A stretch of DNA of 64,000 nt, taken from NCBI RefSeq assembly GCF_000003815.2, contig NC_049983.1:12307454-12371453 (forward strand). The letters run 5' to 3'. The notes under the pieces were generated by a model, which was given only the letters and a program-made list of their open reading frames with translations, made no database searches and had not been told where the DNA came from. This DNA comes from Branchiostoma floridae (Eukaryota; Chordata; Leptocardii; Amphioxiformes; Branchiostomatidae). A program made the translations under genes and the position numbers. The first letter of the stretch is position 1; every line of letters begins with the position of its first letter. Below are positions 8,154 through 51,716 of the stretch, one piece after another.

Positions 8154-11100
8154 ATGCTGAAGGGCAGGACAGCAGGTGGAGCAGGCTGGACAGAAGGCCA
8201 GCCCAAACACAGAGGTTCAAAGATCAGGTGAGATGCTGATTATAAAACATGATTTTCAGCATCACGAAAACATATCTGGTTCTACAGTCTGCAATGATGT
8301 CAATGAACTTTTCTTTGTAATCACAAATGTGAAACACAATATGTGCTTGATGCATTGTATATTCTGCGAGGCTAATATATACAGGCCATTCATTATAAGA
8401 CTGAGGGATAAATGGATTGTGTGTTTCTTTAGCCCCAAGAAAAGAACAGTTCCTCAGCGTGCAAGGACCAGCTCTGCCAAGCAGCCGCGAGTGGGGGCAG
8501 TGCCAGAGTTCCCCCTGGTGCTGGTGTCAGCAACTGATGCGGCCATACATGTGCAGTGGCCAACACCAGGGAAATTGGGTAGGAAATTACTACATCTTCT
8601 CAGTCACAATACTACCTGAATTGACTGATCGACATTATATGACATTGTGTAATTTGTTGTAAAGTATTTTATTGGATTGCATATAGAGGACTCCAGGAAG
8701 ATTAGATTGATGTATTCAACTAAGGGAGATTCCTAATAAACAAACAAACATTTGTCAAATTGTTAACAAAAACATCTTTATTCTGAAGAACATTTTGCAT
8801 CGCCTACATAAAGGCCTACTAATCCAGGATTTTAAATTTCTGTCACGTCAGCCACGTAAACACTTTTAATTTGATATGTTACTTTGCAGCAAAAGCTCAA
8901 TGGAGAATATTGTAGCTTAATGAATAACCACGTGATGGACAAGAAAGTCCATTTTCCCTTTCAAACCCATGAAAGACCAGGCATATAAATTACCCTTTCC
9001 ATTTCACTGGTATCTGTCCGCCCCACAAACTGTTGTCAACAACAATAACAAAACAGCAGATTTTATTACCTTTTCTCTCAATGATAGATTGTGCTTGGGT
9101 CACTTTCTCCTCACAGTCATTATCTGGAACACTTGTGATGAATACAGGTGTGATATCACATGACTGTACGCTTTAGAGGCCGTTTCAGGTCACCTCTCCT
9201 GGAAGAATTAGACTGATCAAGTTTTACGGGGCATTTCAGTGTGAATCAATTAATGCGTCAATCGGTTCAGTGACAATGAAAAGGTATCGACCAGAAATCA
9301 ACCATAGCTCTGCTGCTGTCAGATCACTTTGGAACATTTATGCTGTACGTTATAATCGTCTTTTTCCTAATCCCCCTCACTATACACTCGTTCTCATTGA
9401 AATGTCGAAAATGGCATTTTTTTGGTCGAAAAATAAATCGGCTTTATTTTCAGTGAAAACTACCTGGTTGTTTAGGAAAATTCCTCTTTTAACCATAGCC
9501 AAAAAATTGCAACTTATTATTTTCGGTCCCATTGGTAATACATTACAGGGCGGGTAACAAACGTTACCGGTAACGTTTGTTACAACAGTAAACTTTACCC
9601 TGTTTTCTTCTAAAGGACTTACTTTATTGACTACATCATTTAGGTATACAAATGTAAGTGGATGTCTCAAGGAATATTTGAAAAGTGGGCAGCTTTTTTA
9701 CACCAGGTCAAATAGAAAGCTTAGACAGCATCGAACAATGGTAACGTTTGTTACAGTCATTTTTGTACAACATTTTGTTAAGCAAGGTGGGGTACAAATA
9801 ACAGTCAACAACCCTTTCTTGTTTCTTTAGGAAGCCAGAAAAACTGTACAGCGTCACAAAAATGGTCATTTCTAGTCTTATACGTGGATAATAAAACCGT
9901 GGCAACCATCATACTCGTAGTGGTAACGTTTGTTACAGAATCTGGCGACAGGCATAAACCACCTCACACAGCCTCCAAGATCAGTGACAGTAGCGGTCTG
10001 ACGTGATCGGTCAGAGGGCCTTGGTGGCTGGTTTCACCTGCCGAACAATTATTCTGGAAACTGAATTGTTACATTTTTGGCTACTATTTGAATTCTTCGT
10101 TTCTTCTCAGGCGACAGCCATTTTTTAGGGTGTGAAATCCGACCCGTGGCTTTAATAACCGTCTAAGCCATCAACCAATACGAATGTTGTTGTGCATCTT
10201 TTGTAAAACATTACAGGGGTTATGGAAAAATGAAGGAACCAGTTATGTTGTCTTTAATTTTCTCCATATCAAGTGGTAACGTCAGGCGACAGCATTTCGA
10301 CATTTAAATGAGAACGAGCCTATAGAGCAGGAAGTGTTAATCTGAATGCTGGAGAAGAAAGCACTGAACTAGCATTATGTCGGCCTGAAAAGACTACAGT
10401 ATTTTGATACATGATGAAAGTATTTTGACAAATGCACCTTTTCACACAAAGCATTATTGCTTCACACTTTGCTGTTAAGACATAGGTATCATAAAACTTC
10501 AGAAATGTTTATCAAGGGCAAACTTAATGAAACTTAGAAATAATGCCTCACGTCTGTACTACACTGTAACCAATGCAATATTGATTAGTTTGTAATCTCA
10601 CAGCGGGGGAGGATTAAAAGATTAGGTTAGCTATATCTATGTATATGTATATGCGATTCTAAATGTGTAAACATAATTCTATCTTTTGTTTAACATTACA
10701 AAGCTTTATTAGTGTTAAGAAAATGTTAAAATGTCAATTGATATTTTTTTTAGTAATTTTACTACTAATGTTTAGTATTGTTCTTTCAATGTTTTCAGTT
10801 CTGATTAACACAGCTTTGCCTTGTATCTACAACAAGTCTCAGTTGACTCCACATCTAAGTAAGACATAGTCACGTTGTCTAACAATGAAGATATGTAAGG
10901 CACCTCCCACCCTATTAAATTCCAATTAAGGTGGATTTATGTGTTGGATGTTTGTATCTGTTTTGTTACAGGTGTTGGGAGTCTAAGACACATTCAGGTG
11001 CAATGGAGCAGTGCTACCTGTCCAAAGGTGTGGTCTTGTCTACATTATTCTGTTGTCAGAATGATATGTTGACACCAAGCGCAATGAGTGCTTGACAAAT

Positions 11101-14100
11101 TGACATAGACGCTGTTTGTATTGGCACTGGATTTCTTTGTTTAATCTTGGTTCTTGGGAACAAGTATTATATTTTGATCTGAGGGCACAGTAGTTAGTAC
11201 CTGGTACATTTAGGCAGCACCTTGAGGTGGACTCTCACAATGTCAGACCATCAGAATAACAAATTCAAATACAATGTACATCACACATTCAAAAAGAACA
11301 CTGGTCTTCTTTAGGGAAGATGCATGTCCAAGTGTACCTTACCCTGGGGAACCAAACTCAAAGACGCGGTACAAACGAGAGTTACCGATCCCCGCCTGCC
11401 ACATGCGCACACACAACTATCCGTGAGAGGCAAGCGATAGTTGGGGCCAGATCGTCGGGCATGCGGGTGTTGGGTGTGCGGGCGTCCCGGGGGCGGGTGT
11501 GGCGGTGATCGGTAAACCTTGCACGCGGTTCTTAAGAGTCTGGTTTTCCCAGGGTAAGTGTACCTGATTTCTCTTATAAAACTCCAGCTGAAAAACGTTT
11601 TGGCCTCGTTCAAGAAATGGATTTTCCTTTTCAAAAACATGGATTGATATAACATTACAAATTATCTAGATTAGAACCAAGTTCCCAAAAGAGAACACAG
11701 TTTAACTAGAAATAAGCTAGTGCGGTAGTCTCAATCCCCATAAGTGGTTCCTGGGAGTTTATACAGGGTTTGACCTACCTTACCAACAGAGCTATTGTTT
11801 GCATGGAGCTTAGGACCCAGTGTTAGCTTTGTAATGAAACCATGACAACCTCCATTGTAGCTACATGTCCACATAAAAATATATAATAGTTTGATTGCCA
11901 GTATGTTTACTCACCTCTTACACCTTCACAATGACGCAGGCAGATATCAAACAGTTTGGAAAAAAAAACACTTTTCATATCACATGCGTTTCATCGCGTT
12001 GGTCCTTTTTATAGAAGTCGTTTCAATTCCTTTGTAAATATGTTTCTTGCAATACTCACAATGCTAATATTTCACCACAAACATACCATGTACCATAAAT
12101 ATATTTGGTCTATTAGCTCAGGTGTTTGAACAATCTACCTTTATGGATCGTCTACTTCACATGTTGGAATTATATTTGCACAATATTTTAAAAAAGAAAT
12201 GCTAAATTATTGAATTGGTGTTAGCAATACATGTGTATTTGCCTTTTGTGTTGTAAAACTTTCATTTTATCTAAGGGAGAAAATATGTTTGCTCCCTTTA
12301 GGTGAAGCAGACTATTTTGCCACCACGGGAGACAGGCTATGTGATTGGCCATTGCCAGGCTGGTGTTGTGTACTATGTAAGGGTGCTACTGGTTGGTGGG
12401 TTGCTGGAGAAGGCAGTTGTTTGCAAGTCCAGACAGCTGACAGTAGAGACAGTGGGTCCTCCTGATCCACCTGTTGTACGTGTCAGGTGAGTCCTTCGGT
12501 GTTGAGTGAATGTTGTTTACAGTGTCATGTACTTTCTTATGTTGCCACCTCAAAATGAACAAAAATGCTTATAGTTGTGGTCATGATCAACATTACAGGG
12601 AGCACAGGATACTGTAAATGCAGAAATGTTTGCAGTGTATTAATGTTTGCGGTTTTCGCGGTGACCAATTTACCACAAACTTAAAACCACCGCGAACACT
12701 TTTCTATTATGGTATAAGACCGCGAAAAGTCCTTTAACCCGCTACCGCAAAATTAAATCCCCGCAAACTTACATGCATTTGCAGTATTTTGGTTCCATTG
12801 AGGTTTTGTTGAGAATAGTTGAGACACCAATTTACATTGTAGGCCCTGTCAGACTGAATGCAATTGCAGTTTTCTTGTTTACATTCTAGGCGCTCACAGT
12901 ATGCTATACAGGCTTTTCATTGACGTGATATTAATCATAATTTGAATCCTCTGACGACCATGTTGACGGGTAATTAAATTAGCTCTAGCATCTTTGTGTG
13001 GTGTACAGACATACGCTGTAATCCAACAAGCACAGGTGACGTCAAATGAAAAGCTTGTATTGTCTATGCTATTGGACTACCAAAAATCCAAACAGTCAGT
13101 TAGAAAAAAAATGGCTGCTTCTATTAAAACATTGTTTACATACAAAACACAACAAATGAAACTGCAGTGATTGATACTGGTAACTTGTTGTATGTGCAAA
13201 TTGACAACATCTGCTTTTAATTTTTGTTTTCAGGAGCTGCATGTTCTATGGAATCACTGTAGAATGGAGCAGGCCCAGAACGTACGGTGCCTCAGAACTG
13301 TGTGGATATGATGTGTACATAGACAGGGAGTTTGTGGCCAAGTTTCAGCCCCATCAGCACTGGTACATGTACAGACTAGGGAACCCATGTCAGCAGTATG
13401 CCTTCCAGGTCCAGGTAAGGTCCCTTCCATTTTATAAGTGCATGAGGAGATACATACCCAAATTACCCTGACCCTACCCATTCTGTTTCAATTGTCTGAA
13501 CAGCATGTGTTGTCAATTTTTTTTACCATTTTTTTTAAGATCGTCCATTAAAATCAAAGAACACAACGGAGAACTAATGGGTACATTTATGTTAACATCT
13601 TCTATTCATTGGCTGAGGAAATAAGTCAGGTATTACCTGCTCACCCACATTATGTTACGAAATACGAACAGAACATAATTTCAGCACCAAGGACAGGTCA
13701 TCCTTGTTTCCATTCAAAATGAACTATGCCTTATACAGGTATTTGTTGATATATATCCTGGTACTTCTGCTATTATTCAAACGGATTCAATGGCAACTTA
13801 ATGATGGATAAACTGACAAAGGGCAGACTGCTTTCATCATAATTGTTCTTCTACTCGATAGGCCATTTCCAAACAAGGAGACCAGGAGTTTTACAGCAGT
13901 CGGTCAGCGCCTGTGAAGGCCATCTGGCCAGGTGTGAAGCCACCTGAGGTGACCAGAGCACCTACTGACAGAACACGTGCCATCGGGGTCAGGTGGGATG
14001 ACCCTGAACTTACAGCTGTGGGGGTCAAGGTCACTGGTTTTAAGGTAGGGTTTGAGGAATAAATGTCTAATGCTACACTTTTGTGAAGCATATCTGACAT

Positions 14101-17100
14101 AAGCTGGACCTATGAATTCTTCTCATTGTTTATACATGTAAAGGGTTATGGTAACAAAGTTGTACTTCTAATGGCCTGTCTTAGAACAGACATATTCATG
14201 CATATGAAATATAACAAGTGTGTTGCATTTATCACAGGTGTTCTGTGAGGAGGATACACCGGGTGAAAATAGACAACAACTTGTCCAAGGCCCCCTACCC
14301 CCCAGCATCAGACACACCATGTTCACTGAGCTGAAAGCTGGTGCATCATACACCATCTATGTGGAAATACTGGTAAGCTTACTTCTGGGGGCCTCCAAGG
14401 GGAACTTTCAACCTATCCATCATTCCATCATACTAGTAAATCATTCCATCATATGATAACTTCATACATTAATTTCTCACATTTTATTGAATTTCTTATC
14501 AAAAATGGTGATCTAAGGGAAAGAACCAAAAGCAATCAAACCAGGATTAGTATTTTACCTTTAAAGCCAATGTTTTGCTAAGATTGGCTATATTTTTTTT
14601 TCCTTTTCAGGTTGAAGGCCTTCCTAACCCTGTCAGGTGTAAACCAATCAGAGAGGTCCCTGCACAGGTCCCACCAGCACCTCATCTAAGGCTGTCTGTG
14701 ATTGGCCAGAGGGAGAGGCAGAAGATTGAAAACATTATATTTGAACTAGTTAATAGGAAAAACAGGTAAGGGCCAATGACATATCTACACTTCATTCTGA
14801 CATCAAAGAAAGCTCAAATGTAAGCAACAGGCAAAGAGTAGTATGACGTGACTTTTAGCTATTGTTTGGAACATGCGTGACTCTAATTCTATTTTGGACA
14901 CTTGATGACATACAGCAGCTTTGAAACTTGTGTACACAAATTCTGTCTCACCAAACTGTTAATTAAAACTGTACTTTATCTACTTCCACAGTCTGCAGAA
15001 ATCAGTGCAATATCAGCAAAGTCTTCAAAGTCACAAGAAACCATCCAAGGAACCAGAGGTAGGTTATAGTTGGTTGCTTTGTCCTAAAAATACATAAAGA
15101 CTAAATTAAAGCATATACATTGTGACATCAACTGTCATAATTTCACCGGGTGCCATAAGACCGCCACATAAAAAACATTTTATGGAGGCCTTCCCAAGAT
15201 TGTCTTTATCACCTAGATATCTGATGTGTGTACCTTAGGATTACTGATGCTGCATTAGTACACCTCTTTAAATCACTTTAATTTCATGTATCTTCTTATG
15301 TGATGGTGTTATGGCATCAGATGGAGTTACGAGAGTTGATGTTACAACTTTGACAAGTACCTGAAACTGATAGTGATCTACTTACTTTTTCATACTTAGA
15401 GGGGTACCAATCTGTCAATACAAAGATACCGTACGGTAGGATATATTTCTTAAGTTACAGTTACCCTTCGTTTTTCTAATTCACAAACAGCATATTATCT
15501 CATTCTTCCAGTTGGAGAGATTGCAATCTTCCAAGAAAGAGTTGGAGAAGATGATTTACAGGTGTTTCAAATCTCTGCCACAATATACAGGTTTGTCTTC
15601 TACCTTGCATTTTCCTTCTCATAACATCTTGTTTATTTTGAAATATTTTACAGTTAGCAAATAGTAGGCCTCTTGTAACCCGATACTCTGTCGAACTCGC
15701 ATAGCAACGGGAAAGAATACCCTAGCAACCGACCGCCGTGATAGATCTATACAATTCTATGCAATTCTCGGTCTCTATGATGACATCATTGTAGACAGGG
15801 GTCACCTGGTTCTTCCCTGGTTCTTACCATTAGTCCTGTATATTGCCATGTTGCTGTGATTAAGCTCCATCAGAATCTGGTTGCATCCTAGTCTATGGGG
15901 TCATTGTCTGTATCCCATTGGTCACTAAATGGTGATTAACAAAAGTGAAAAGATGGTGCTGAGACTTGTGCACAGTAACTTACAAGTAATCTCATAACAA
16001 ATTTAATACACAGTGGCACCAGTATTTCCCATTCCTTTCTGTAGACGCATTCCCACTGTGGGTCTCTCCTTGGTGCTGAAACAGTTATCATTCTGTACTG
16101 TGAAGTTTTCCTTCTTATATAATGAAAACCAGCATTCATCTTTTTGTATTCTACAAAGTAAAAATGTACCAAGTGAATATATAATGATTCGATGATAAAT
16201 GATTCATTTGTTTGTTGTTCCTACCAGGTGTGGTGAACTTGACCCTTGAGTGGGAGGTGACAGACACCATTGATGCAGTAGTGAGGGGGTATATTGTACA
16301 GGTGAATGGGGAGCAGTATGGAACTGTACTGCATGAAGGGGTCACCAAACTTGACATCCAGGTAAACACATCTCATTACACTATTTGATGTAATAGCTGT
16401 GGGATCTACATGTGATGCATATCTCATCACACAAATCTAATAAAACAAGTTTTGATAGATTGTTTGTCTTCTTTGTTTGCATTGCCTTTCATGGTGCAGC
16501 ATAGCTGAGTAGTAATACGATGTACATGTTTTTTATAACCTGGGCTGGAATCAGTCATAAGTTAGTGTATGGTAGGAGGCAAACTCAAACATACAGTCTT
16601 TAATCTGGCATCACCTAATAGGATAATAGCAGACTCAATGAGTCTGCAAGATCTAAAAGGACATTTGTGTTCTGAATATGGCCATTGTCCTCTTGATTGC
16701 CATGTAGTTTTAGGGATTGGTCAATGTTTGTTTGCTCCCTAACCCCATTCAATTTGACAGTAGATTTTTAAGCAAAACTTACGCTTGAATCTCTGACAAT
16801 TTTGAAAGTGTCTTTCTGGTGATTGCCAAATTCAGTGAAATGCCATTGACAATTTAATGCTGGCCTTATGGGCAGTGTTGATTCCATGTACTTGGTGTCA
16901 TGACAGAATCTGATACATCTAGTGATGGTGTTACTTTCTCAATGATGACCTTTGCCCTCCAGCTGGACCTGGAGAGACGTTTCCACAGTGTGCAATTATT
17001 GACAGTAACTCACTACCCCGAGGACACGCGGCAGTCGTCCACACTGCAGGTCTGTACGGAGGACTTCCTGCCGTTTGCCGTCTTCTGTTTCCATCACGTC

Positions 17101-19661
17101 CACAAGCAACTGGCCAGGTACTGGAGAACATGATTGTCACATATCGCAACTGGTTGTACATTTGTATTTCATTTATTAATGTGTTAAACATAGGTTATTG
17201 TTCATGCATTGTTGTCTGATGTTCTATGATATGAGTAGCAGTAGATTTCTAACAAATTTTTTATTCTGGTATGCTTATTGCAGATGGCCAGATAAGGGAT
17301 GCTGTTACTATGGTGACAGCCTGCCTGAGGAGCAGCAGTCTGCCCCACCTGTCAATCAGTGGTTGCTAGGGCGATGCACCCCTCCCCCTGCCTGTACAGT
17401 GTATGATGTAATGACAGAAGGTTGTGCACCACTGGTGACCAGGAGACAGATCCCCCGACCTGATGTCATACTCTTCTGGACAAGCTGGTGAGAAATGGAT
17501 GATCTTTCATCTGCTCTATGAGGCCTTATTAATATTGAGTATATCATGGGTACTTCTCTTTTTCTTTAGTGTGCTGAGACAGGACTGCCAAAGAACACTT
17601 TTTAAAAAGAAAAGTAATATACATGTATAGTAGTATTATTCTCAAACAAAATTTATGGTATTCAGGATGCTTGTTCAGGGGCTATCAGCATAGGAACATC
17701 ATTTTCATTTTCAAACACCTTCTATGGTAACTGTTGTCCAGGTGTGTGGCATCCAAGAGAGTCATGCCTTTCTTTGTGGACTACGCCCGAGAGAACACGC
17801 TGCGGTGTGCCTTCACTGCCTGCTGCTGCGGCACGGCGAGCGGCCACGATCACATGACCAAACTCCAGGACCTGATCCTGGACCGCTGCTGGAGGAATGA
17901 TGTCACCGTCAGACACTGCTGCTGTTGCCAGGCAACCAGAGTGCAGCTGGAGAGGGACACGCCGGTGCAGAGAGGAGCCATGCTGCAGAGACTGTCGTCC
18001 AACGTGCCGCAGCTGTTTGGTGTGCCTGGGGTGCCAACCATGGTGGTCATCAGTGCTGATGGTGGGTGGGGACGTACTAATGTTACTTGTTTCAAAGTCT
18101 GTGGATCACTTTAAGCACCTTTAAATGGAATTTCAAGACTGTAACCTACTTAGATTTCCTTGAAATCCACCTAGTCCAGTACTTGTTTTGCTCCTTGTCA
18201 TTCTGCTCTATGTTCTGAGAAGTGATGTCAAGAGCCAGAAATCAAGTAGCTGGCCCCGGGGAACATCCGTATGTTGTTAGAAATATATACTAGTAGACTA
18301 TACATCCCCAGAATGTAATTGGTAAATGTCTCAACATACCATGTGTACAGGGTCATATTCCCTGTCAACACGTTGCTAGATTTTTATGTCAATTAAGTCC
18401 ATCCAATAGTAGTTAAAGAGACATTACCTGTTCCCCCAGGGTACCTAGCCTGGAGAGGTCAGATCTGTGCAATAGATTACCCATCATTCAAAGCCACCAT
18501 GGATGAGGTGGTGGAGAAGGTTCTGTCTCGTCGGCCGGCACCAGCTGGCTACAGTTCTGTTGGGCACAGTCTGGCTTTGGGAAGACCAGGTTAGTTTTCC
18601 TGAGTTATCTTCCATTTGTACAGTTGTATAGGTGGGATATTGTGTCCAAACCTCTGCATTACTACCTGACAGTATTTGGTTTAGTTCCAGTTTGCTTGTG
18701 TAACCAGGACAAAACTGTACATAAAATTTCATATAGCCTCAATGATAAAACTTACTGGCGTTTTATAGTGATTCCTGTGTTAATGTTCATAAATAGGTAG
18801 AAATCATAAACAACTAGTTGGAACGGAAGAGACGATCTCAGGGATAGAACTGAATATTGAGTCAATTTCATAATTCCAATGTCATATCAGTCATTGATAT
18901 CAAACAGAGTCTTTAACATCAGCAAGTTCTGATGAATGAGGAGCCAATTTGCTTTCCTGTTCCCCTTTGTGCTCATAGGTCGGCCCAGAACCATGTCTGC
19001 TGTCTCCAAGACTTCGTCCTCCCAACACTCCACCATGTCTGAACCCACCATGTCCAGACTTCCCCAGACTGGCAGGGCAGGTAACATCAACAGGCACAGT
19101 GCACCTATACTCAGGTACAGAGGGACTCAGGGTTGTTAGGGTAACACTAGATGAATGAACAGGATAGACAAAAATAAATAAAACTTAAAAAGATATACTG
19201 TTTTACTCCTGCAGTTCTCTACAAGTGACACTCCAGATATTCTCAAGAACCTCCTTTCAAACTGTACATTGATTTTAAACCATACTGCCTACTAAGTATT
19301 AGGAGAAATCATCCATTACACAAGGTATCTAATACATGTACATACAAGTTGACTGTTTTGATATTTTCATATCAGGGACATATTTTGATATTTCAGACTG
19401 AGAGAAAGGATGAAAATGCTGAAACTGAGAGAATCACAACCAACAGAGGACAGAAATGCGTGGGATGGGGAGGAACCATTGTTACTAAAACCGGTAGCCC
19501 CTATCATTGTGGAGCCAAATGGGATCACCCCTCCCTCAACTATTATTGTAACTCCCCCTACACCTGAGAGGAAGAGAGTTGCAGGTTTCAAGTCCCAGAA
19601 TTCCTCTGGCCCAACTTTTGTCCTGTGGAGAAGAAGAGATCCAAGGGCTGCTTCTCAGTGA
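8154..19661 (+). CDS. Tandem fibronectin III protein with CxxS thioredoxin domain
   Basis: Seventeen exons (8128-8227, 8433-8578, 10972-11027, 12302-12486, 13234-13414, 13862-14044, 14238-14372, 14611-14765, 14992-15058, 15512-15590, 16228-16361, 16963-17117, 17284-17487, 17742-18061, 18440-18589, 18979-19114, 19397-19661) keep phase throughout, giving 874 residues from the ATG at 8154. Several fibronectin III-like units can be seen (for example ITVEWSRP...YDVYIDREF and LTLEWEV...YIVQVNGEQYG), with a short coiled coil near residue 370-420. They resemble FN3 units of RIM-binding proteins only in general style. Residues about 575-720 form a thioredoxin-like domain: DVILFWTSWCVASKRVMPFF, then GVPGVPTMVV with the cis-proline. 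Cys586 is kept, but the second active-site cysteine is Ser589. A Cys-rich insert (CCCG, HCCCCQ) of roughly 50 residues lies between. There is no signal peptide, so it is probably intracellular. I do not recognise a named orthologue. The start could be further upstream. Confidence 0.8.
9380..10325. mobile_element. Non-autonomous TIR DNA transposon
   Basis: The ends are inverted copies: CTCGTTCTCATTGAAATGTC at 9388 and, on the other strand from 10318, CTCGTTCTCATTTAAATGTC, both preceded by CTATA plus two bases. The element is about 946 bp, lies in intron 2 of the FN3-thioredoxin gene, and has no transposase-like reading frame. Inside are three copies of GGTAACGTTTGTTAC and three of a motif close to CAGGCGACAG. 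The superfamily is not clear. Confidence 0.6.
9554..9583. repeat. Perfect 30-bp palindrome with two half-copies downstream
   Basis: GTAACAAACGTTACC is followed directly by its reverse complement GGTAACGTTTGTTAC. The same 15-mer recurs as single copies at 9740-9754 and 9922-9936, spaced by about 171 and 182 bases. All lie inside the TIR element. They look like repeated subterminal protein-binding sites, as transposase-binding motifs often are. Confidence 0.85.
11331..11565. mobile_element. Hairpin MITE in intron of FN3-thioredoxin gene
   Basis: About 40-bp imperfect inverted repeats: the left end reads GTGTACCTTACCCTGGGGAA and the right end, on the other strand, reads GTACACTTACCCTGGGAAAA, both followed by an ACGCGGT or CCGCGT block. 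An inner pair (CGATCCCCGCC against GGCGGTGATCG) continues the fold. The element is about 235 bp, GC-rich inside, and has no coding capacity. Confidence 0.6.
12609..12787. mobile_element. MITE with ATACTGNAAATGCA ends
   Basis: The 179-bp element starts ATACTGTAAATGCAGAAATG and ends, on the other strand, ATACTGCAAATGCATGTAAG. The interior is rich in CGCGGT and ACCGCG and also folds back. MITEs with these ends are, to my knowledge, common in marine invertebrate genomes. It lies in intron 4 of the FN3-thioredoxin gene. Confidence 0.7.
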
Positions 19662-24279: not shown

Positions 24280-24950
24280 AGCGTCGTGCCAACACCTGGC
24301 TAGGGACCCATAGGGGAAGACAACTGCGCGTATTACACTTACGTGCAAACTCCGCTTGTGATGACGTTAGCCCGTGTATCATTCTTCACACGGGGTACCC
24401 AAAAATTAGCTTATTGTATCTTTAGAATTAGTAATGACGATGATGTAGATCTATACTAGTATGAAACCTGCATCATCTTATGAGTCATCTTTGTTCAAAT
24501 GTTACATTTTCGCAATTGCACTCTGACGCATTTACCTTGTTCTAACCTGACAGTCTGGCCATTGAAGGACGTCCTTGGTCTGGCATACTCCGTCAAGACA
24601 AAATTACAGAAACAAGGAGGTTGTAAACTAGATGCATATCTGCATAATTATATAGATGTGTATGATTGTTTCCATTGTTACATACATGTGATCCTTACCA
24701 TGTGATCTGTACTTTTTTAATAGCCCAGTGGGGCAAGTTGCTGGAAAAATAGTAGAAATTTGTCAAATATGCCAAGAATTAGCAAATTGTACTCCTAGTC
24801 CTCCTGCATATACATGCATCTATTATTCAGTCTATCTGGCCAATTTCTATTTCCCAGCAACCTACGGAATCTGGTAGAGTTACAACATCCCTGAAAGAAC
24901 TAACCACTGTAGCTTACATCACAGCTGACAATGTTAATTCCCCATGATGG

Positions 24951-27092
24951 ATGCAGCACAGCAGCAGCAAGAGGAAAGCGAGGAAAACTGTGGCCCAGAA
25001 ACAGACTCACTCAGGAGGGACGAGGAAGAAGCAGCGCAAGGCACCCAAGAAGGGTACCCCGAAGATGCGTACCAGGGCAAAATCCACCAATAAGAGGTTG
25101 TTCAAGTGCCAGGAGTGTGACAATTCTGTCTCAAAAAAGTGCTTGCTGAAATCGCATGTGATGGCCAAACACACAGGTGAGAGGCCCTTCAAATGCCAAC
25201 AGTGCGACTATTCTGCAACACAGTCGCATTACCTAAAGGATCATGTAATGGCTATACACAAAGGTGAGAGGCCACACAAGTGTCAACATTGTGACTATTC
25301 TGCAACACAGAAGTGTGCCCTGAATAGGCATGTAAGGGCTAGACACACCACCGAGAGGTCGTTCAAGTGCCAGCATTGCGACTATTCTGCAAAAACAATG
25401 CGTGTCCTTAAAGTACATGTAATGGCAAGGCACACTGGTGAAAAACCACACAAGTGCCAACAATGTGACTATTCTACAACACAGAAGACTGCCCTGAGGA
25501 TGCATGTGAAGGCTAGGCACACAGGCGACCGTAAGAGACCGTTCAAGTGCCAGCAGTGCAACTATTCTGCTACAGGGCTGCATGGCCTGAAAATGCATGT
25601 AATTGCTAGACACACAGGTGAGAAACCATACAAGTGCCAACATTGTGACTATTCTGCAGCACAGAGAGGAGCCCTGAAAGTGCATGTGATGGCTAAACAT
25701 ACCGGTGAGAGACCGTTCAAGTGTCAGCATTGTGAATATTCCGCAACAAGTAAGGGCATCCTGAAGCAACATGTTAAGGCTAAACATAGCGATGAGAGGC
25801 TGTACAAATGCGAACAGTGTGACTATTCTGCAATAAAAATGTGTGACCTCAAGGCACATGTAATGGCTATGCACACAGGTGAGGCGCCACACCAGTGCCC
25901 GCAGTGTGACTATTCTGCACCACGAAGGAATACCCTGAGGATGCATATAAAGGCTAAACACACTGGTGAGAGACCACACAAGTGCCCTCGATGTGACTAT
26001 GCTGCTTTAAAGGCGGATACCCTGAAAGATCACATTATGGCCAAACACACCGGTGAGAAACCACACCATTGTAACTATTGTGACTATTCAGCAACCCAAA
26101 AAAGCAGCCTCAACAGCCACATTAGGTCAGTACACTCTGGGGAGAGACCATTTCAGTGTGATCTCTGTGATTATTCTGCATCACAGAGGGGTCATCTGAA
26201 GGACCACATCATGGCGAAGCACAGCAACCACAGGCCTCACAAATGCACGCAGTGCGACTATTCTGCAATGACCAAACAAAGATTGAATCGTCACATGGCT
26301 TTGCATACAAATAAGAAACCATTTAAGTGTGAGATATGCAGCTACTCTTCCATCCAAAAACAGGATCTGGAACGACACTTGGCAATCAAACACAGAGGAG
26401 AGACCCCTTACAAGTGTGACATCTGTGATCGCTCTTTAGCCAGTAAAGCAGGTTTAAAACGGCACATGGCGGCTACACATGCTGTTGAGAAGCCACACAA
26501 ATGTATTGTTTGCAGTTACTCTGCAGCAGAGGAATGCATGTTAAAAAGACACATGTCTACACACACTAAGGAGAAGCCTTACAAATGCGACGTTTGTGAT
26601 TATTCAGCAACATTGAAGTCGATTCTAAAACAACACATGATCATACACTCCGGTGAGAAGCCATTCCAATGTGATGTTTGCAAATTCTCCACAGCATCAA
26701 AGTCAAGTTTAAAGACGCATTTGACCATACACACTGGCGAGAAAAAGTACAAGTGTGACATTTGTGGATATGCTACAGCAAATCTGTCTTACTTCAAACA
26801 ACACGTGGCCATGCACACTGGTGAGAAGCTGTACAAATGTGAACTTTGCGACTATTCTACAGCAATAAGGACAGGTTTAACCCAACACATGGCCACACAC
26901 ACGGGTGACAAGCCATACAAATGTGACATCTGCGGTTATTCTGCTGCACGAATGTCTGCTTTGAAAAAACACATGACCAGACACACAGATGAGCAGCCTT
27001 ACAAATGTGACGTCTGTAGTTACTCTTCAGTACGACTCAGCAGTCTGAGACGTCACATGACCATACATACAGGCACAGACCTTAAAAAGTGA
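24951..27092 (+). CDS. C2H2 zinc-finger protein with 23 fingers
   Basis: A single uninterrupted exon encodes 713 residues. A basic N-terminus of about 50 residues (KRKARK, RKKQRKAPKK) looks like a nuclear localisation region. It is followed by 23 tandem Cys2-His2 fingers joined by TGE(R/K)P(F/H/Y)KC-type linkers. Fingers 1-13, 15 and 16 have H-x4-H spacing; finger 14 and the last seven have H-x3-H, so two blocks of different origin were probably joined. Most fingers share CDYSA after the first cysteine pair, a form abundant in lancelet zinc-finger families. It is a likely DNA-binding nuclear protein; targets cannot be inferred. An in-frame TGA at 24945 fixes 24951 as the first possible start unless an upstream exon splices in. 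An ATGATG at 24944 opens a different frame of 49 codons that overlaps the start and could act as an upstream ORF. No KRAB, SCAN or BTB domain is visible. Confidence 0.85.
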   Translation: MQHSSSKRKARKTVAQKQTHSGGTRKKQRKAPKKGTPKMRTRAKSTNKRLFKCQECDNSVSKKCLLKSHVMAKHTGERPFKCQQCDYSATQSHYLKDHVMAIHKGERPHKCQHCDYSATQKCALNRHVRARHTTERSFKCQHCDYSAKTMRVLKVHVMARHTGEKPHKCQQCDYSTTQKTALRMHVKARHTGDRKRPFKCQQCNYSATGLHGLKMHVIARHTGEKPYKCQHCDYSAAQRGALKVHVMAKHTGERPFKCQHCEYSATSKGILKQHVKAKHSDERLYKCEQCDYSAIKMCDLKAHVMAMHTGEAPHQCPQCDYSAPRRNTLRMHIKAKHTGERPHKCPRCDYAALKADTLKDHIMAKHTGEKPHHCNYCDYSATQKSSLNSHIRSVHSGERPFQCDLCDYSASQRGHLKDHIMAKHSNHRPHKCTQCDYSAMTKQRLNRHMALHTNKKPFKCEICSYSSIQKQDLERHLAIKHRGETPYKCDICDRSLASKAGLKRHMAATHAVEKPHKCIVCSYSAAEECMLKRHMSTHTKEKPYKCDVCDYSATLKSILKQHMIIHSGEKPFQCDVCKFSTASKSSLKTHLTIHTGEKKYKCDICGYATANLSYFKQHVAMHTGEKLYKCELCDYSTAIRTGLTQHMATHTGDKPYKCDICGYSAARMSALKKHMTRHTDEQPYKCDVCSYSSVRLSSLRRHMTIHTGTDLKK

Positions 27093-29744: not shown

Positions 29745-32700
29745 TCATTCTTGTCCTTCATCAGAGCTATCGGACACACTGGGCTTGGCCTGGGCAAGCT
29801 GCTCTCTCCTGGCCCTTATCCTGGCACACTTGGGGCAGTTCCCATTGTGGAAACACCCCCTGTGGTAACAGGACCCGCACAAGGCACACTGGGTACACTT
29901 CTGCACCTCAAAGGGGAAGATGATGTCTGTGTCGTTCCCACACACCTCGCAGTAAAACCCTTTAGCCTGGCACAACTCACACTGTTTCACATGGGTTACT
30001 GCATCCTCGACAAAGTCCTTCAGTGGACCAATCAACTCCCCATTCTTCACTTGAAGCAGATCGCTGATGGAGAAAACGTGGGGGTCATGGGTCAGGTGAT
30101 CTGGGAGTTTTTTAAACTCGGAGTACAGGTTCTGTCCTAGACGACAGGTGCGGAGGAAATTGCGGAGATGATACAGCTGTTGCCGAACGTCCCTCACAGC
30201 GTCCAAGGCACGCACCTTTCTGTACAGTGCAGGGTTTATGTCTGATATGTTAAAGAGAGGCTCAGTGTGCATCTTGTTGATTAAATCGAGGGAGAAGTTG
30301 GAGACGTAATACTTCCTGAAGTCCCACTTGTGGATGATCTTACCAGGAATCATAGAGGAGGCATTGGTGTGGCAGCACTGGCAGAAGTACTTACCTAGGT
30401 ACTCACAGTACCGAAACCTCTTCATGAACCCAGGCTCAACTTTGGTGCCACAGCCGGCACACATATAACTCTGCTTTGCAAGGATTATCTTCCTCTTGGG
30501 GGGAGGGTGGATGTTGAAGACGACTTGTGCCCGGGGCGGGGCCCACTGGAGGTTCCCACGGAGACGGGTCCTTTTGGTCAGGGTGCTGACCAGGTCGGAA
30601 TTCTCCCCCTCGTCAGGTGACACGGGCAGACTGGTGGGCATGGGCAGCAGGGCCTGGGGGACGTCCTGCTCGGACACCAGCCACTCCAGGTCCGAGGCCT
30701 TGGGAAGCTGGTTGTGGGAAAACTTCTTTAGGAGGGAGATGGCTACAGCCTCGGCAGACGTGCAGTCACTGGTGGCACCATAAAAGGAGGAGTCTGTCAT
30801 GGAGCCGCTTCTGTCGCTGGTCGGGTTCAGGGAGGCACTGCGACTCTCTGACTCGGAGAAGGAGGAGTGGACGGTCTGGGAGATGGAGGAGTCATTGATG
30901 TTGGTCTGACGGTGACTGTCATCCTCCTCGCTGGATGGGCACGAGTCCGACACTACTGTAGAGCCTGAGATTTCAAACACATGAGTGATCTTTCACATTT
31001 AGTCATGTTTTATAACAGTTTCACCAAGTTATCAAATTCTACAGACTGTTCCATTGCTAATAATCTGAAGGGTACATATTTTCAACTTCATTAAAAACAA
31101 GTCGTTATTACATCATCGATAAAAAAGGGTAATTATGTCCATCACTATTAAGTGTTCTCAAAACATTTCGAAATCATGACATAACATAAGAAGGGAGACA
31201 AACAGCCACCAGCATTGAAGTGCTATGATGCATCTAATGGTTGAACAAAAGTCTTTGAAAAGCAAAGATATAACATCTATTGAATTGTCAGTAAGTACCA
31301 TACCTCTGTGAATTGTTATGTGAATCAGACCTGTTTAATACATGAAGGAGAGACAGTTACAGCACAAGAATTGGACTAGCATTACTAGTACTAACTTATC
31401 ATTTTGAATGATGCATGTCTACTGCATGGAAAGTGATGAAGCAACAGATGCCATGCAGATGAAGGAAGCCTACCTGGAGGTGAGCTGAAGGGTTCGGTGT
31501 CCCCGCTGGTGGTGATGGAGGTACCGTCACTGTTAAAGGCAGGGAACTGGGCACGCTTGTGCAGCCGCTCCCGCCGACGCACGCGAATCTGATGCTTCAG
31601 GTTCTGGATCTCTTCATCTGAAGCATCCTCTTCTTCATCTTCTGACAGCCTTCTTGGAACCTACAGAGAGCACAAAAACATTGGCTAATTTGACTTTTTG
31701 TTACAGGTAATACTTTGTAGGAACTTCTTGTTACAACACAAGGAAAAATTGGTAGACTTAAGAAACCCTTGGCTGGAAGAAAGTGATACACACACTCTGC
31801 TCTGCTCTGATTTTGACAGACCCTACATGCTGCGACTGGCTTCAGGATAGCAAGTAAGTAGCCTGGTATCCAGCTATATCATAGTTTCCGAGTCTCTTCT
31901 GAGAGGACAGAAGAGACTTGAGAGCTACAATACGGTCAGATACCAGGCAAGTAGGTAATACTAATAAGAAAGTAAATACTACTAGTTACTAGTAGTTACT
32001 AATAAAGAAAATGATAACTCTTCATACATGCAAAAGATAGTATTTGCAGTCATTGTTCTGTGTTAAACATTTCAAATCAAAGAAACACCATAGCTACCTG
32101 GGTACATCTGATCTGTTCGATGGCCGCAATCAATGCTTCAGAGATGCTAAAGTGTGCGTTCTCCTTGTCCAGGTCTGGGCATGTGCGGAAGTCCTGGGCT
32201 GACAGGTACGTCATCAGGAACTCCCCCTCCATTGGTCTTGAGATGTAGGTACTGTCTGTGACTCCTGCCACGCCCGAGTCAGTTTCGTCCTTGTCGTCTT
32301 CATGCTTCTTGTTTTCCATGGCCTTCTCCATGGCCTCCACTCGTGCAGGTAAGGAGCTGGACAGCAGACTGGCTGTCTCTTCCTCAACAGCATCTTCTGT
32401 CTTCTGTTTCGGCACCTTCTTCAATGCCTGAAGGTTTGCATCTGACTTGGACCTGCCATGTGTCTTCTTTGGAGTACTTGGGGGATTCCCTACTGGCGAA
32501 ATATCCATGGGTTCTGTATGATGTGGCTTTATAGTTATACCAATGTCTTCTTCATCATTTCCATTCTCTTCAACTCTTGACAGTTCCTTTCTCACAGCAG
32601 GAACAGTCTTGTCCGGTGTCTGCTGAACCAAACCACATCTCTGGCACACATTGTAAGTACTGTCACCAAAGCTGTTCACATTTGCATTCAACAGATCGTC

Positions 32701-33687
32701 TCTCCCTATTTCAGTATTGCACTGACACACCATTCTTCCCAGTAACAAAGCACTGTCACTGCTCACTTTTCTTACTGACAACGGGCTGTCCACCACTGGG
32801 CTGAATGCCAAATCAGCTATGTCATCATTCCTGTTATATGCAATCCCCAGTTGACTGCTGCAGGAGTTTGGTGACATTTTGTTAATGTTTATGACGTCGG
32901 TACTATCAGTCTTCTTTCCCTCAAGAATAGACATAAGAACGTTCCGCGCTGCTGACTTGCCATCTGAACTGAGTCCGATGTTACTGCTGATAGGAGTTGC
33001 ATGTTCTGCTGTAGTTGTTACATGAACAAATTCCTTTTCCCTCGGAGGGGAAAATAAGGGTAGGTTGACGTTGTGGTTGGACTCACGTCCAATGCTGGCA
33101 GGGAGGGAGGCACTACGGACATAGATGTTTCTGTGATCCGTTGTTGCGACTGTGAGTAATGTGGGATCGATCTGTGCTAGGATGGCTGGGTTATTCTGCT
33201 CTACAGCTTGCAGACACAGCAACATGGCAGCTACACATCTTTGGTTACATAGGAAACTTGTGTCTTCATAACACTTTCGCAAATGGTCCTTGTTGTCGGT
33301 CAAGACTTTCAGTTGGGTTGCCAAGTTGTGGTTTTCCAAGCTTTTCCTGAGCCAGGCCCGGCCCGGGTCGGCTTCCTCCTGTTCCTGTGCATCAGAAAAG
33401 CGGCTCGCCTTCTCCAGAGCCGGTGCAAGGGTCGGGTGCAGCCACCGCAGACCCTTTATGAATGCCCAATAATCGGTGACGTTTCCAAATAATCCACGCC
33501 TTTCCTTCAGTCCGTTGCGGAGTATATCTTCCACTGCCCGGTACATCCTAGGCAGGCCTCCGTACGTGGAGAAAACATTGCTGGTTCTGGTAGCCAGGAG
33601 GCCTTCTACGGTCGATTTCAGCGCACGCAAGAGCGCTTGATGTTCCGAATTGATGAAAAAGTCTTCGCCGTCACTGGAAGCCGCCAT
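29745..33687 (-). CDS. RUBCN: Rubicon autophagy regulator, complete
   Basis: Three exons (33687-32098, 31660-31474, 30964-29745) join in frame to give 998 residues from ATG (MAASSDGED). Residues about 18-170 are a RUN domain: the sequence around TVEGLL...[27 protein letters not shown] and [18 protein letters not shown] is very close to human Rubicon. Residues about 757-985 are the Rubicon-homology zinc domain, with [39 protein letters not shown] and a final CxxC series ending CPKCARI. Exon 2 encodes a short basic helix ([16 protein letters not shown]). In animals Rubicon binds the Beclin1-VPS34-UVRAG complex and Rab7 on late endosomes, restrains autophagosome maturation and supports LC3-associated phagocytosis. 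Vertebrates have a second paralogue, RUBCNL (Pacer); this gene could be ancestral to both, but the RUN domain favours the Rubicon type. The whole RUN half is in one exon, fewer introns than I would expect. Confidence 0.93.
31861..31948. mobile_element. 88-bp MITE in Rubicon intron 1
   Basis: The ends GCCTGGTATCCAG and (other strand) GCCTGGTATCTGA are inverted, and the centre folds as AGTCTCTTCTG against AGAAGAGACTT. AAGTA flanks both sides and may be the target duplication. Confidence 0.65.
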
Positions 33688-34381
33688 TTTTAGGATCACG
33701 GCGAGTCACACGATCTCATCTACCGGTATTCATCTCCGATGTTGATCGCTTTAAACTGGCATCAAATCATGACAGAGTACCTTGAAAAAGTGCCAGAAAA
33801 AGCAATGAGAAGACACAAAACCATGTACTACTACATATTCAGCAACCATTTCGTATCTAAGGAATATTTCCTGAAAATTATAACTCACCAAGGACACTCA
33901 GTTTGTTTTTTGTTCCACCCATTTCAAGAATTAGCCGCAACTAAATGTGACCAAATTCCCTTTCTGTCTAATAACTTTTCTCATCAAAGCTTCCAAATGT
34001 AACATAACATTTCAGCTGCAATTAGCTTAAATTGATATTCTATACATTATATTAAAGTTACTCGTGTATTTTGGGGGCATTTTAGTGAGAAGAGCTGATT
34101 TTCGATACTGTTGCACTTAATTGCTGTCAAATGAACTTTAGCCCCTCCAACAACTGCGCAGAAAGGGGTGCGCAGTGATACTGAGGTGAACTTTGTAACT
34201 TTGTTTGCCTGATTTGTTTGTTTCGAGCAAGCAGTTCTGAGCCAATAAAAACGCTTTTGGCTCGAGCCTTTCGCACCTGCCTGTCGTCACGTCGCACCTG
34301 TCGGAAGGTGAACTCCAGACGCCCTTACACTTGTCAGAACACCTGAGCTGGACCAGCAGCTGCGCCTCCTCCTCTCCAGTC
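33688..34381. promoter_or_regulatory. Shared head-to-head promoter region, RUBCN and PHYH copy 1
   Basis: Only 694 bases separate the start codons of Rubicon (leftward) and the first PHYH gene (rightward), so both promoters must lie here or overlap. There is no clear TATA box. The two CpG-rich patches are next to each start codon (33560-33730 and 34255-34380). The middle is A/T-rich. Confidence 0.55.
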
Positions 34382-37300: not shown

Positions 37301-38286
37301 TTGCACTATGTCACTTTAATTTTCTGAATACAAGTACATGCACTGGTATGTAATGGTACACAGCTATACATAAAACAAGTCCTTAAGTAATGATTGAAAG
37401 ATTAAATGTAGTTTGTATTTTTCAAAGGACATGATCAGTCATATTTGCAGTGTAGTGCTGATTCAAATTACAATGTTTGCAATAATATTAATATGTTTCA
37501 TGCCAGGTTTTTTCACATTGTTGATTCTTTGTTGATTCATTGCTGACTCTTTTATGAGTAGAAAACAGTTGTATATATGCACCCGTTAGGAAAAGATTTT
37601 GACACAAAAAATTGTCTTTTCGAAGGGAGGTGTAAACAAGATGTACCACGGTGTGCGTGACTACTCTCCTGATCACCCCCGTGTGCACCTGGAGATGGAG
37701 AAAGGAGACACCGTCTTCTTCCACCCCATCCTCATCCACGGGTCTGGCATGAACAGGACACAGGGGTTCAGGAAGGTGGTTCATCATTCACTTCATCTGA
37801 GCGCATCCTATTTGAATGACTGGTTTTGTGACCTAAAGTTTGGGAATAGATTTTGCATGGAAGACTGCTTGGCAATTGCAATTAAAAGGAATAGCAAGCT
37901 ACAATTTATTTGTCACACATCTGGATTCATGTGTTTTACAATATAGCTCACAAATGTTTTGTCTTGTGCTTTTTAGGCCATCTCTTGTCACTATGCCAGT
38001 AACCACTGCTACTACATCGATGTGGAAGGGACAACTCAGGAGAACATTTCTGATGAAACTCTTGCACTAGTCAGGAGAAGGCTTGGTGACAATGTTAACC
38101 TGTCTTTCAAGGTAACATAGTCTTGATATCTAGAAGTCAGCTTTATGTTGAAGAGGGGTGTTTCATGCCATTTGATGGTTTACCAGTTATGTGATTCTGA
38201 CTGAGATATCTTTTCTGCTGCTACAGGATGTGTGGCGCCTGCGTGCACGACTGGTGAAGGGACAGCCTGGAAACATTGTGGAATAA
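34382..38286 (+). CDS. PHYH: Phytanoyl-CoA 2-hydroxylase, peroxisomal, tandem copy 1
   Basis: Eight exons (34382-34444, 36023-36165, 36338-36506, 36642-36723, 37011-37192, 37626-37775, 37977-38111, 38227-38286) give 327 residues; human PHYH has 338. The enzyme uses Fe(II), 2-oxoglutarate and O2 to hydroxylate phytanoyl-CoA, the first step of peroxisomal alpha-oxidation of branched fatty acids. Iron ligands are visible in [10 protein letters not shown] (H-x-D) and [10 protein letters not shown], with the 2-oxoglutarate arginine in [11 protein letters not shown]. Near-identity to human PHYH runs through [20 protein letters not shown] and [20 protein letters not shown]. Residues 4-12, RLLTVLRHL, match the PTS2 consensus exactly and align with RLQIVLGHL of human PHYH. 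The ATG at 34382 is therefore the right start, and import should be PEX7-dependent. Intron 1 has U12-type signals. Copy 2 lies 2.5 kb downstream in the same orientation. Confidence 0.95.
34567..35815. repeat. Imperfect ~200-bp tandem duplication split by a transposon
   Basis: Unit 1 begins at 34567 with CTCCTTTGACAGAATAAGAT and contains ATGGCGCAGTTT and AGATCTAAAGTCCA. Unit 2 begins with the same 20 bases near 34768, is interrupted at 34808 by the Harbinger-like element, and resumes at 35635, with ATGGCGCAGTTT at about 35722 and AGATCTAAAGTCCAG near 35755. The duplication came first and the insertion second. Confidence 0.65.
34809..35634 (+). mobile_element. Harbinger-like DNA transposon remnant with Myb/SANT reading frame
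   Basis: The TIRs are GGCGCGATCTACACACAGTT (left) and, on the other strand of the right end, GGCCCGATCTAGACACATTT. Both continue TTTCCCGATAT. The flanking triplets TTA and TGA fit the 3-bp target sites of PIF/Harbinger, and the uninterrupted tandem unit next door shows the empty site as TTGA. From 35109 the element encodes an 86-residue frame starting [20 protein letters not shown], whose W..AET.FLI..W pattern resembles the Myb/SANT-like protein carried by Harbinger elements. No DDE transposase is present, so the element is non-autonomous. Confidence 0.7.
35895..35927. repeat. AAGGAGGTTTAAAA hairpin
   Basis: AAGGAGGTTTAAAA (35895-35908) pairs with TTTTAACCTCCTT (35915-35927) across a six-base loop, about 95 bases before the acceptor of the U12 intron. 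It has the same design as the palindrome at 23697. Confidence 0.6.
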
Positions 38287-50267: not shown

Positions 50268-51716
50268 ATGATGGACAGCATCAAGAAGGCATTCCATGCC
50301 AAGTGTGAGGCCGACAACAAAGGGACCAAATATATCAGTGTGGTTACAAACCCCGTGAGTACTCTTTTATTCTTTACTTTTGGAAAGCGGATGGGTTTGG
50401 TCAATCTTTTCAAATTTGTAGATGTATATATTGCAATCTACATTGCAAAAATATAAGTATGTATCTTCAGAGAATGGGCATCTGGGTTGTACTGTCTAGA
50501 GCTGTGAACAATGTATAATGTAGCATAGCAAAGTAGTGTAGAGTGAAGTTTCTAATTAATTTTGAAGGAGATACTAAGTTAGTAGCAAACCTTCCATACT
50601 TAGAGGTATATCCAATGACAAAGTCAGTAGTATCAGCACAGAATTTTTTTATCATATGAAAATGTGCACAAAATAAAAATTGTATTGCAGAACCTTTTCA
50701 CAAAGTGACTGACTTCGTTCTTTATTCCCCAATAGGAAATCTGGGAGAAAGTCAAGCCAGTCTATGACATTCTCTTCACCAAAGCATACAAGATTGAGAC
50801 AGTCTTTGTGGAGGACCCTGGGGGAACATGTGAAGGAAGAGAACATCACACCCAGGATGCTTCTCCTGAGCTGCCTATCACACAGTCCCTTGTCTCAGAC
50901 TTCCTACGTCAGCTTCCAAGCAAGGGAACAGTCAGCCCCATGTTGTCAGCCATTGTCCCGGACATATTCTATCATGGGTTTTCAACCCGTTCTGGTGGGC
51001 TGTCAGTGTTTTCCTCCCTGTCCTCACTGAATCTGAACTTCAATCCAAAGAGACGTGATCCTCGTGTTGTCGTGCAGGAAAACAGATATCGCTTGTCTGC
51101 AGCAGGCGGGTTTGATGTGAAGAGGCTTTTTGTCGCGAAGGCAGAGCATGGTTCAAGGGTCTGGGTGGTAGGGAAAGATCCTCCAGATGCATATGATGCT
51201 ATTGTTACCAACAGCCCAGGTGTTACCATTGCAGCACCAGGAGCAGACTGCATCCCCATGCTGTTTGCCGATCCTGTCAATCAAGTTGTTGGAGCAGCTC
51301 ACTCGGGATGGCGGGGGACACTGGCTGGTGTTGCTGCTGAAACCCTGCGTGCCATGGCAGCAAACTTTGGTACTGTACCAAGTGATGTCCTGGTTGTGCT
51401 GGGTCCATCCATTGGTCCTTGCTGTTTTGAGGTTGGGGAGGATGTAGCAGAGAAGTTTTCCACTGTTCAACCAGCCTGTGTAGTCCGGGAGGAAGGGAAA
51501 GAGAAGCCAACCATAGACCTGAGGAAGGTTTCCCGCCTGCTACTGGAACAAGCAGGAGTCAGGCCAGAGAACATTGATGATGGAACCCTGGGTACTGAGC
51601 CCACTGTGACACTGTGCACAGCATGTGAGCCTGGACAGAGGTTCTTCTCCTACAGGAGAGATGGGGCAGAGTTTGGAACACAGGTTGGCTTCATTGGCAT
51701 CAAGGGAGCAGAGTAG
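50268..51716 (+). CDS. LACC1: LACC1/FAMIN laccase-domain purine enzyme
   Basis: Two exons (50268-50354, 50736-51716) give 355 residues. The C-terminal 250 form a YfiH/LACC1 domain: FYHGFSTRSGGLSVFSSLSS, KRRDPRVVVQENRYRLS, the zinc-site histidine in KAEHGSRVW, cysteine in GADCIPMLFADP, histidine in AAHSGWRGTLAGV, and LGPSIGPCCFEVGE. These match human LACC1 closely. The human enzyme works on purine nucleosides (adenosine deaminase, nucleoside phosphorylase and methylthioadenosine activities) and links to fatty-acid oxidation in macrophages. The human protein has 430 residues; this one lacks about 80 at the N-terminus, so an upstream exon may exist. I kept the ATG at 50268 because no convincing acceptor precedes it; a second ATG follows directly. 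The 3' end converges on UPF2, with poly(A) signals about 150 bases apart. Confidence 0.9.

Follow-up and report, generated by a model that had tools for sequence, protein, structure and literature searches.

Titin and myosin-binding protein C, both of which carry FN3 arrays, are intracellular muscle proteins, whereas fibronectin is extracellular. AGR2 and ERp44 are among the CxxS members of the PDI family, which has the thioredoxin fold. As to the fold itself, a passage of PMC2757866 describes the site between strand 2 and helix 2 as the only region that seems to accept insertions easily, and the helix-strand insertion found there as common to peroxiredoxins, glutathione peroxidases and the cytochrome maturation proteins (CcmG/ResA).

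The gene presented here lies in the window, i.e., the whole stretch of 64,000 nucleotides of Branchiostoma floridae DNA that was analysed (G000:C5:12307454-12371453). Our best reading, a tentative one with a probability of about 0.4, is that it encodes a probably cytosolic adaptor composed of three FN3 units, a charged spacer, a poorly defined unit and a divergent, non-reducing thioredoxin-fold domain with one active-site cysteine. The base of this reading is observed: the gene model runs in phase, the FN3 units and the thioredoxin fold are recognised by sequence, and the second active-site cysteine is lost.

Gene model and FN3 units

The gene comprises 17 exons on the + strand, from 8154-8227 to 19397-19661, that give a CDS of 2625 nt and a protein of 874 aa. 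Each of the 16 junctions has GT-AG borders and keeps the frame, which bears out the 874-residue, 17-exon protein of the original prediction. The ATG at 8154 is the sole in-frame one downstream of the upstream stop, and a non-coding first exon further upstream is possible. On a donor matrix, exons 2, 10, 12 and 16 have weak donors, which score 0.1-1.6 bits and fall at the 90th-95th percentile of window GTs, and the other 12 stand at least at the 97.6th percentile. The features are as follows.

8154..8227, + strand, exon 1: ATG start, residues 1-24 and part of 25
8433..8578, + strand, exon 2: basic leader and start of FN3-1; weak donor
10972..11027, + strand, exon 3: FN3-1
12302..12486, + strand, exon 4: end of FN3-1, start of FN3-2
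13234..13414, + strand, exon 5: FN3-2
13862..14044, + strand, exon 6: end of FN3-2, start of FN3-3
14238..14372, + strand, exon 7: FN3-3
14611..14765, + strand, exon 8: end of FN3-3, start of the charged spacer (helical look, by eye)
14992..15058, + strand, exon 9: charged spacer; four Pfam matches, all below cut-off
15512..15590, + strand, exon 10: charged spacer; weak donor
16228..16361, + strand, exon 11: unit 421-497, FN3-like by eye only, no Pfam or PDB support
16963..17117, + strand, exon 12: remainder of unit 421-497 and linker; weakest donor
17284..17487, + strand, exon 13: linker with C523, C524, C548, C554 and C564; next comes the strand VILFWTSW, ahead of the active site
17742..18061, + strand, exon 14: active-site C586 (17743-17745), S589 (17752-17754), insert, cis-Pro683 (18034-18036)
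17797..18003, + strand, insert within exon 14, residues 604-672: CCCG at 17821-17832, HCCCCQ at 17914-17931
18440..18589, + strand, exon 15: last part of the thioredoxin fold, with YLAWRG and the C-terminal stretch
18979..19114, + strand, exon 16: Ser/Thr/Pro-rich tail; weak donor, no Pfam family
19397..19661, + strand, exon 17: tail and stop codon

Several other elements were seen in the window. A segment of some 950 bases in intron 2 (9380-10325), flanked by 31-base inverted repeats (90%), looks like a non-autonomous DNA transposon; GGTAACGTTTGTTAC occurs in it four times, with two of the copies forming a perfect 30-base palindrome at 9554-9583, and none of 100 window shuffles gave four such matches. 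Downstream of the gene there are one 714-residue open frame in which the C2H2 zinc-finger double domain matches 20 stretches (24948-27092), a Rubicon gene on the minus strand (29745-33705; RUN, PI3K-binding and Rubicon homology domains over two open frames), a PhyH-type exon (37590-37946), a Cu-oxidase_4 (laccase-domain) frame that we take to resemble LACC1 (50736-51716) and, on the minus strand at 55180-57162, acidic frames, presumably reminiscent of UPF2, two of which were searched and gave no Pfam match. A query on the neighbouring genes returned nothing.

The whole protein matches Pfam fn3 with 57.4 bits against a cut-off of 25 (E 1.7e-15) in three stretches, which establishes FN3 membership, while the units cut out singly score 18.0, 24.3 and 24.7 bits (E 0.0035, 3.7e-5 and 2.8e-5), each below that cut-off. 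A possible fourth unit, at 415-500, has no Pfam family and its PDB search returned one weak unrelated chain; since it lacks family support, the FN3 count is set at three, and of the several FN3-like units originally claimed it is these three that stand. Among the 16 solved chains listed for the FN3 part, titin comes first (2.6e-9), ahead of myosin-binding protein C (3.5e-5) and fibronectin (4.6e-4). Because the top two are intracellular and the third is extracellular, the FN3 part does not settle the location. The N-terminus has no hydrophobic stretch (among 19-residue spans that start before residue 60, the top mean is 1.41, at residue 45), which makes a cytosolic location plausible, and with it the first half of the proposal that the protein is an intracellular scaffold with a monothiol or metal-binding module.

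The thioredoxin-fold domain and its active site

Family models recognise the domain poorly. When it was cut out, the best Pfam match was Thioredoxin_8 (PF13905), with 19.4 bits against a cut-off of 27 (E 0.0013) over residues 577-601, and Thioredoxin (PF00085) reached 11.1 bits against 23.5 (E 0.41). The best NCBIfam E was 0.0047, with TIGR01068 at 17.1 against 96.8. Thus no thioredoxin family model of Pfam or NCBIfam rises above its cut-off, which counts against our best explanation, and the gene is absent from the own-genome lists of PF00085 (35 matches) and PF13905 (6 matches). In the PDB, searched at E up to 10, 26 of the 27 listed matches are thioredoxin-family by name, all with E of at least 0.028. 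Structure prediction of exon 14 alone, with no alignment, gave a pLDDT of 39.2, too low to support the fold.

The assignment is carried by an HMM of TlpA-like proteins. It was built from 80 loci, the best 80 of 553, that were gathered with an alignment of three TlpA proteins (L009-L011) and not with the window query, but a remote selection bias remains, since L009-L011 themselves came from that query. The match of residues 560-740 reaches 20.5 bits and consists of two collinear pieces, of 7.7 and 10.6 bits; the best of 2000 shuffles got 8.4 bits (0/2000 as good). When the halves were taken apart, 561-606 scored 11.7 bits and 600-740 scored 11.8 bits, neither being equalled in 5000 shuffles. 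The FN3 part gave no score and the tail -1.6 bits (108/1000 shuffles as good); the 0.8 bits of residues 346-560 (29/1000) indicate how far low scores can drift. On these similarities the thioredoxin-fold assignment is sound, and the C-terminal thioredoxin domain first proposed by eye is supported by sequence in both halves. Pairwise comparison with two own-genome domains, the nucleoredoxin-like L013 and the PDI domain L001, gave a score of 40 each (2/500 and 3/500 shuffles as good, respectively); the pairwise scores of L009-L011 are biased, as these proteins were retrieved with the window query itself.

The active site reads W585-C586-V-A-S589 in the spliced protein, i.e., there is no CxxC with a resolving cysteine, just as the replacement of that cysteine by serine had been described. 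The usual dithiol pair is lost. The Trp585 codon is split TG|G at 17487/17742, directly before C586, and this junction, which had been pointed out at first, has a counterpart in two own-genome exons.

L004 and L005, G000:C10:12430768-12430968 and 12431963-12432172: PDI-type exons

Both read AG and then G TGT GG(C/T) CAC, so that an acceptor there would break the Trp codon just where the window gene breaks it. The junction across the Trp-Cys pair is therefore supported and at the same time unremarkable. The nucleoredoxin-like loci L012, L013 and L015 (WCPPC) and L016 (GCPPC) are all uninterrupted at this place. L016 (G000:C11:13476832-13477041), which lies among clustered nucleoredoxin-like exons, has Gly in place of the active-site Trp.

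The cysteine-rich insert

The distance from C586 to cis-Pro683 is 97 positions, and the clusters CCCG and HCCCCQ occupy residues 612-615 and 643-648. Initially, this span was set against about 44 residues. The count and the clusters hold, but the contrast is weakened, since 44 belongs to classical thioredoxin, and in the two of three TlpA proteins for which a pairwise distance was obtained it is 80 (L009) and 62 (L010); the own-genome PDI domain has 46. Automatic measurement in 34 of the 80 TlpA-like loci gave a median of 74, with unreliable extremes of 36 and 121. The gap between the two HMM pieces spans 45 positions in the model and 70 in the query, thus implying about 25 extra residues.

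The insert aligns to the strand 2-helix 2 place of the fold. Its sequence finds no match in the TlpA model: residues 604-672 were equalled by 1924 of 5000 shuffles, i.e., there is no recognisable similarity. Judged from the alignment, the position of the insert is ordinary, whereas its extra length and its nine cysteines are not. A CCCC run accompanied by another run of at least CCC arose once in 20,000 composition shuffles of residues 561-740.

Proposed adaptor function, rival readings and known systems

Since the second active-site cysteine is lost and a cysteine-rich loop is added, a binding or thiol-trapping adaptor is more likely than an ordinary reducing enzyme. The domain keeps the nucleophile position (Trp585-Cys586) and cis-Pro683, with Ser589 in the place of the resolving cysteine, and disulfide reduction by the usual dithiol cycle would not occur. 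Partners would be held by the FN3 units and the cis-Pro groove. A mixed disulfide at C586 is possible; it would either persist as a trap or be released by glutathione or by a nearby cysteine of the insert, for which C607, C612-614, C634 and C644-647 are candidates. From these features we infer the lack of reductase activity, the binding of partners and the cytosolic location. A stronger version, in which the FN3 scaffold would be cytosolic and possess its own thiol switch, with C586 resolved by one of two cysteine clusters of a lineage-specific insert, so that oxidation and not catalysis would alter what the scaffold holds, is unlikely.

The chief rival, which is almost as likely, regards the thioredoxin domain as a plain pseudo-enzyme, i.e., a binding fold without thiol chemistry, in which C586 would be a relic and the cysteine runs would have arisen in a surface loop by neutral growth of triplet repeats. 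It is favoured by the replacement of the resolving cysteine by Ser589, by the undetectable homology of the insert and by the codons of the cysteine runs, TGC TGC TGC and TGC TGC TGT TGC; with TGC repeated in this way, the runs may be young and could have sprung from a short triplet repeat. It also draws on Leu580, which occupies the place of thioredoxin's buried Asp. Three of five thioredoxin chains aligned from the PDB have Asp at this position and L009-L011 have E, N and N; however, the two other chains have Val and Met, so that Leu580 is indecisive and only suggestive as a sign of lost chemistry. Against the pseudo-enzyme speaks the retention of Trp585-Cys586 and cis-Pro683, while the remainder of the domain drifted under the Pfam cut-offs, and a cysteine at such a helix start is usually reactive.

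Binding of a metal or an iron-sulphur cluster by the insert, perhaps jointly with C586, as in some CxxS-type glutaredoxins, is distinctly unlikely. The nine cysteines in residues 604-672 invite this reading, and in glutaredoxins, according to PMC7351949, whether the function is redox or Fe-S depends on a loop beside the active site. A phmmer match of the insert to [2Fe-2S] ferredoxin (E 0.0051 for the full sequence, 0.62 for the best stretch) pointed the same way. Yet on a ferredoxin HMM the insert scores 2.4 bits, which was equalled or beaten in 56 of 2000 composition shuffles and in 37 of 2000 with the cysteines fixed, and the ferredoxin family is absent from the Pfam and NCBIfam results. 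This HMM was made of 18 search frames. One of them, L120, is off-target, the pairs L121/L144 and L132/L141 each stand for a single place, and two more, L127 and L145, belong to another ferredoxin type. A ferredoxin-type insert was rejected, as the phmmer match did not exceed the shuffle control, and the metal-binding half of the original prediction is unsupported. The idea of a wrong model or of two genes, one with the FN3 units that stops after exon 12 and another, thioredoxin-like, that begins near exon 13, may cite the donor of exon 12, the weakest of all (0.1 bits, 90th percentile), beyond which the frame continues to a stop at 17133, but is very improbable, as the gap between exons 12 and 13 is just 166 bases and their junction is GT-AG and in phase.

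Relatives were sought in the own genome (513,431,437 bases, 431 contigs), where the spliced protein gave 19 matches, i.e., its 17 own exons and two weak ones on contig 18 (E 0.015 and 0.144), and no second copy was seen among the best-scored candidates. The animal sequences compared were those of solved structures and of the own genome. Viral contigs contained no relative, and plasmids gave eight weak matches with E of 4 to 10 (three TlpA, four hydantoinase, one unannotated). Hence the own genome, viral contigs, plasmids and solved chains yielded no relative of the whole protein, which counts against our best explanation. No report of an FN3 array followed by a non-reducing thioredoxin fold was seen among the open-access papers listed, which is weak evidence of absence. 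The parts, FN3, CxxS and an insertion at this site of the fold, are all of known kinds. If the gene is real and conserved, it would add this domain order and would offer a testable example in which a thioredoxin fold has become the binding or thiol-trapping part of a scaffold.

Compared with known systems, the FN3 part finds its best solved chains in the arrays of titin and myosin-binding protein C, but the window protein has only three FN3 units joined to a thioredoxin module; its whole-protein Pfam scan contains no Ig family. RIM-binding protein is approached by FN3-2, which matches PF25523 weakly (0.042, below cut-off); SH3, a trait of that protein, does not appear in the whole-protein Pfam scan at E up to 10. 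Nucleoredoxin is approached through Thioredoxin_8 as the best Pfam match of the domain (577-601), although the score is under the cut-off of that family and the gene stays outside its six own-genome matches. With the PDI family the domain shares the thioredoxin fold and the occurrence of CxxS, whereas the window protein has no leader and carries FN3 units and a long insert; the resemblance to L001, a PDI domain, does not extend past the active-site helix and is weaker than that to TlpA. Unlike the TlpA/CcmG/ResA proteins, the window domain has Ser for the second Cys, an attached FN3 array and an animal gene without a leader, yet both of its halves match their HMM and both groups have extra sequence between the active-site and cis-Pro halves.
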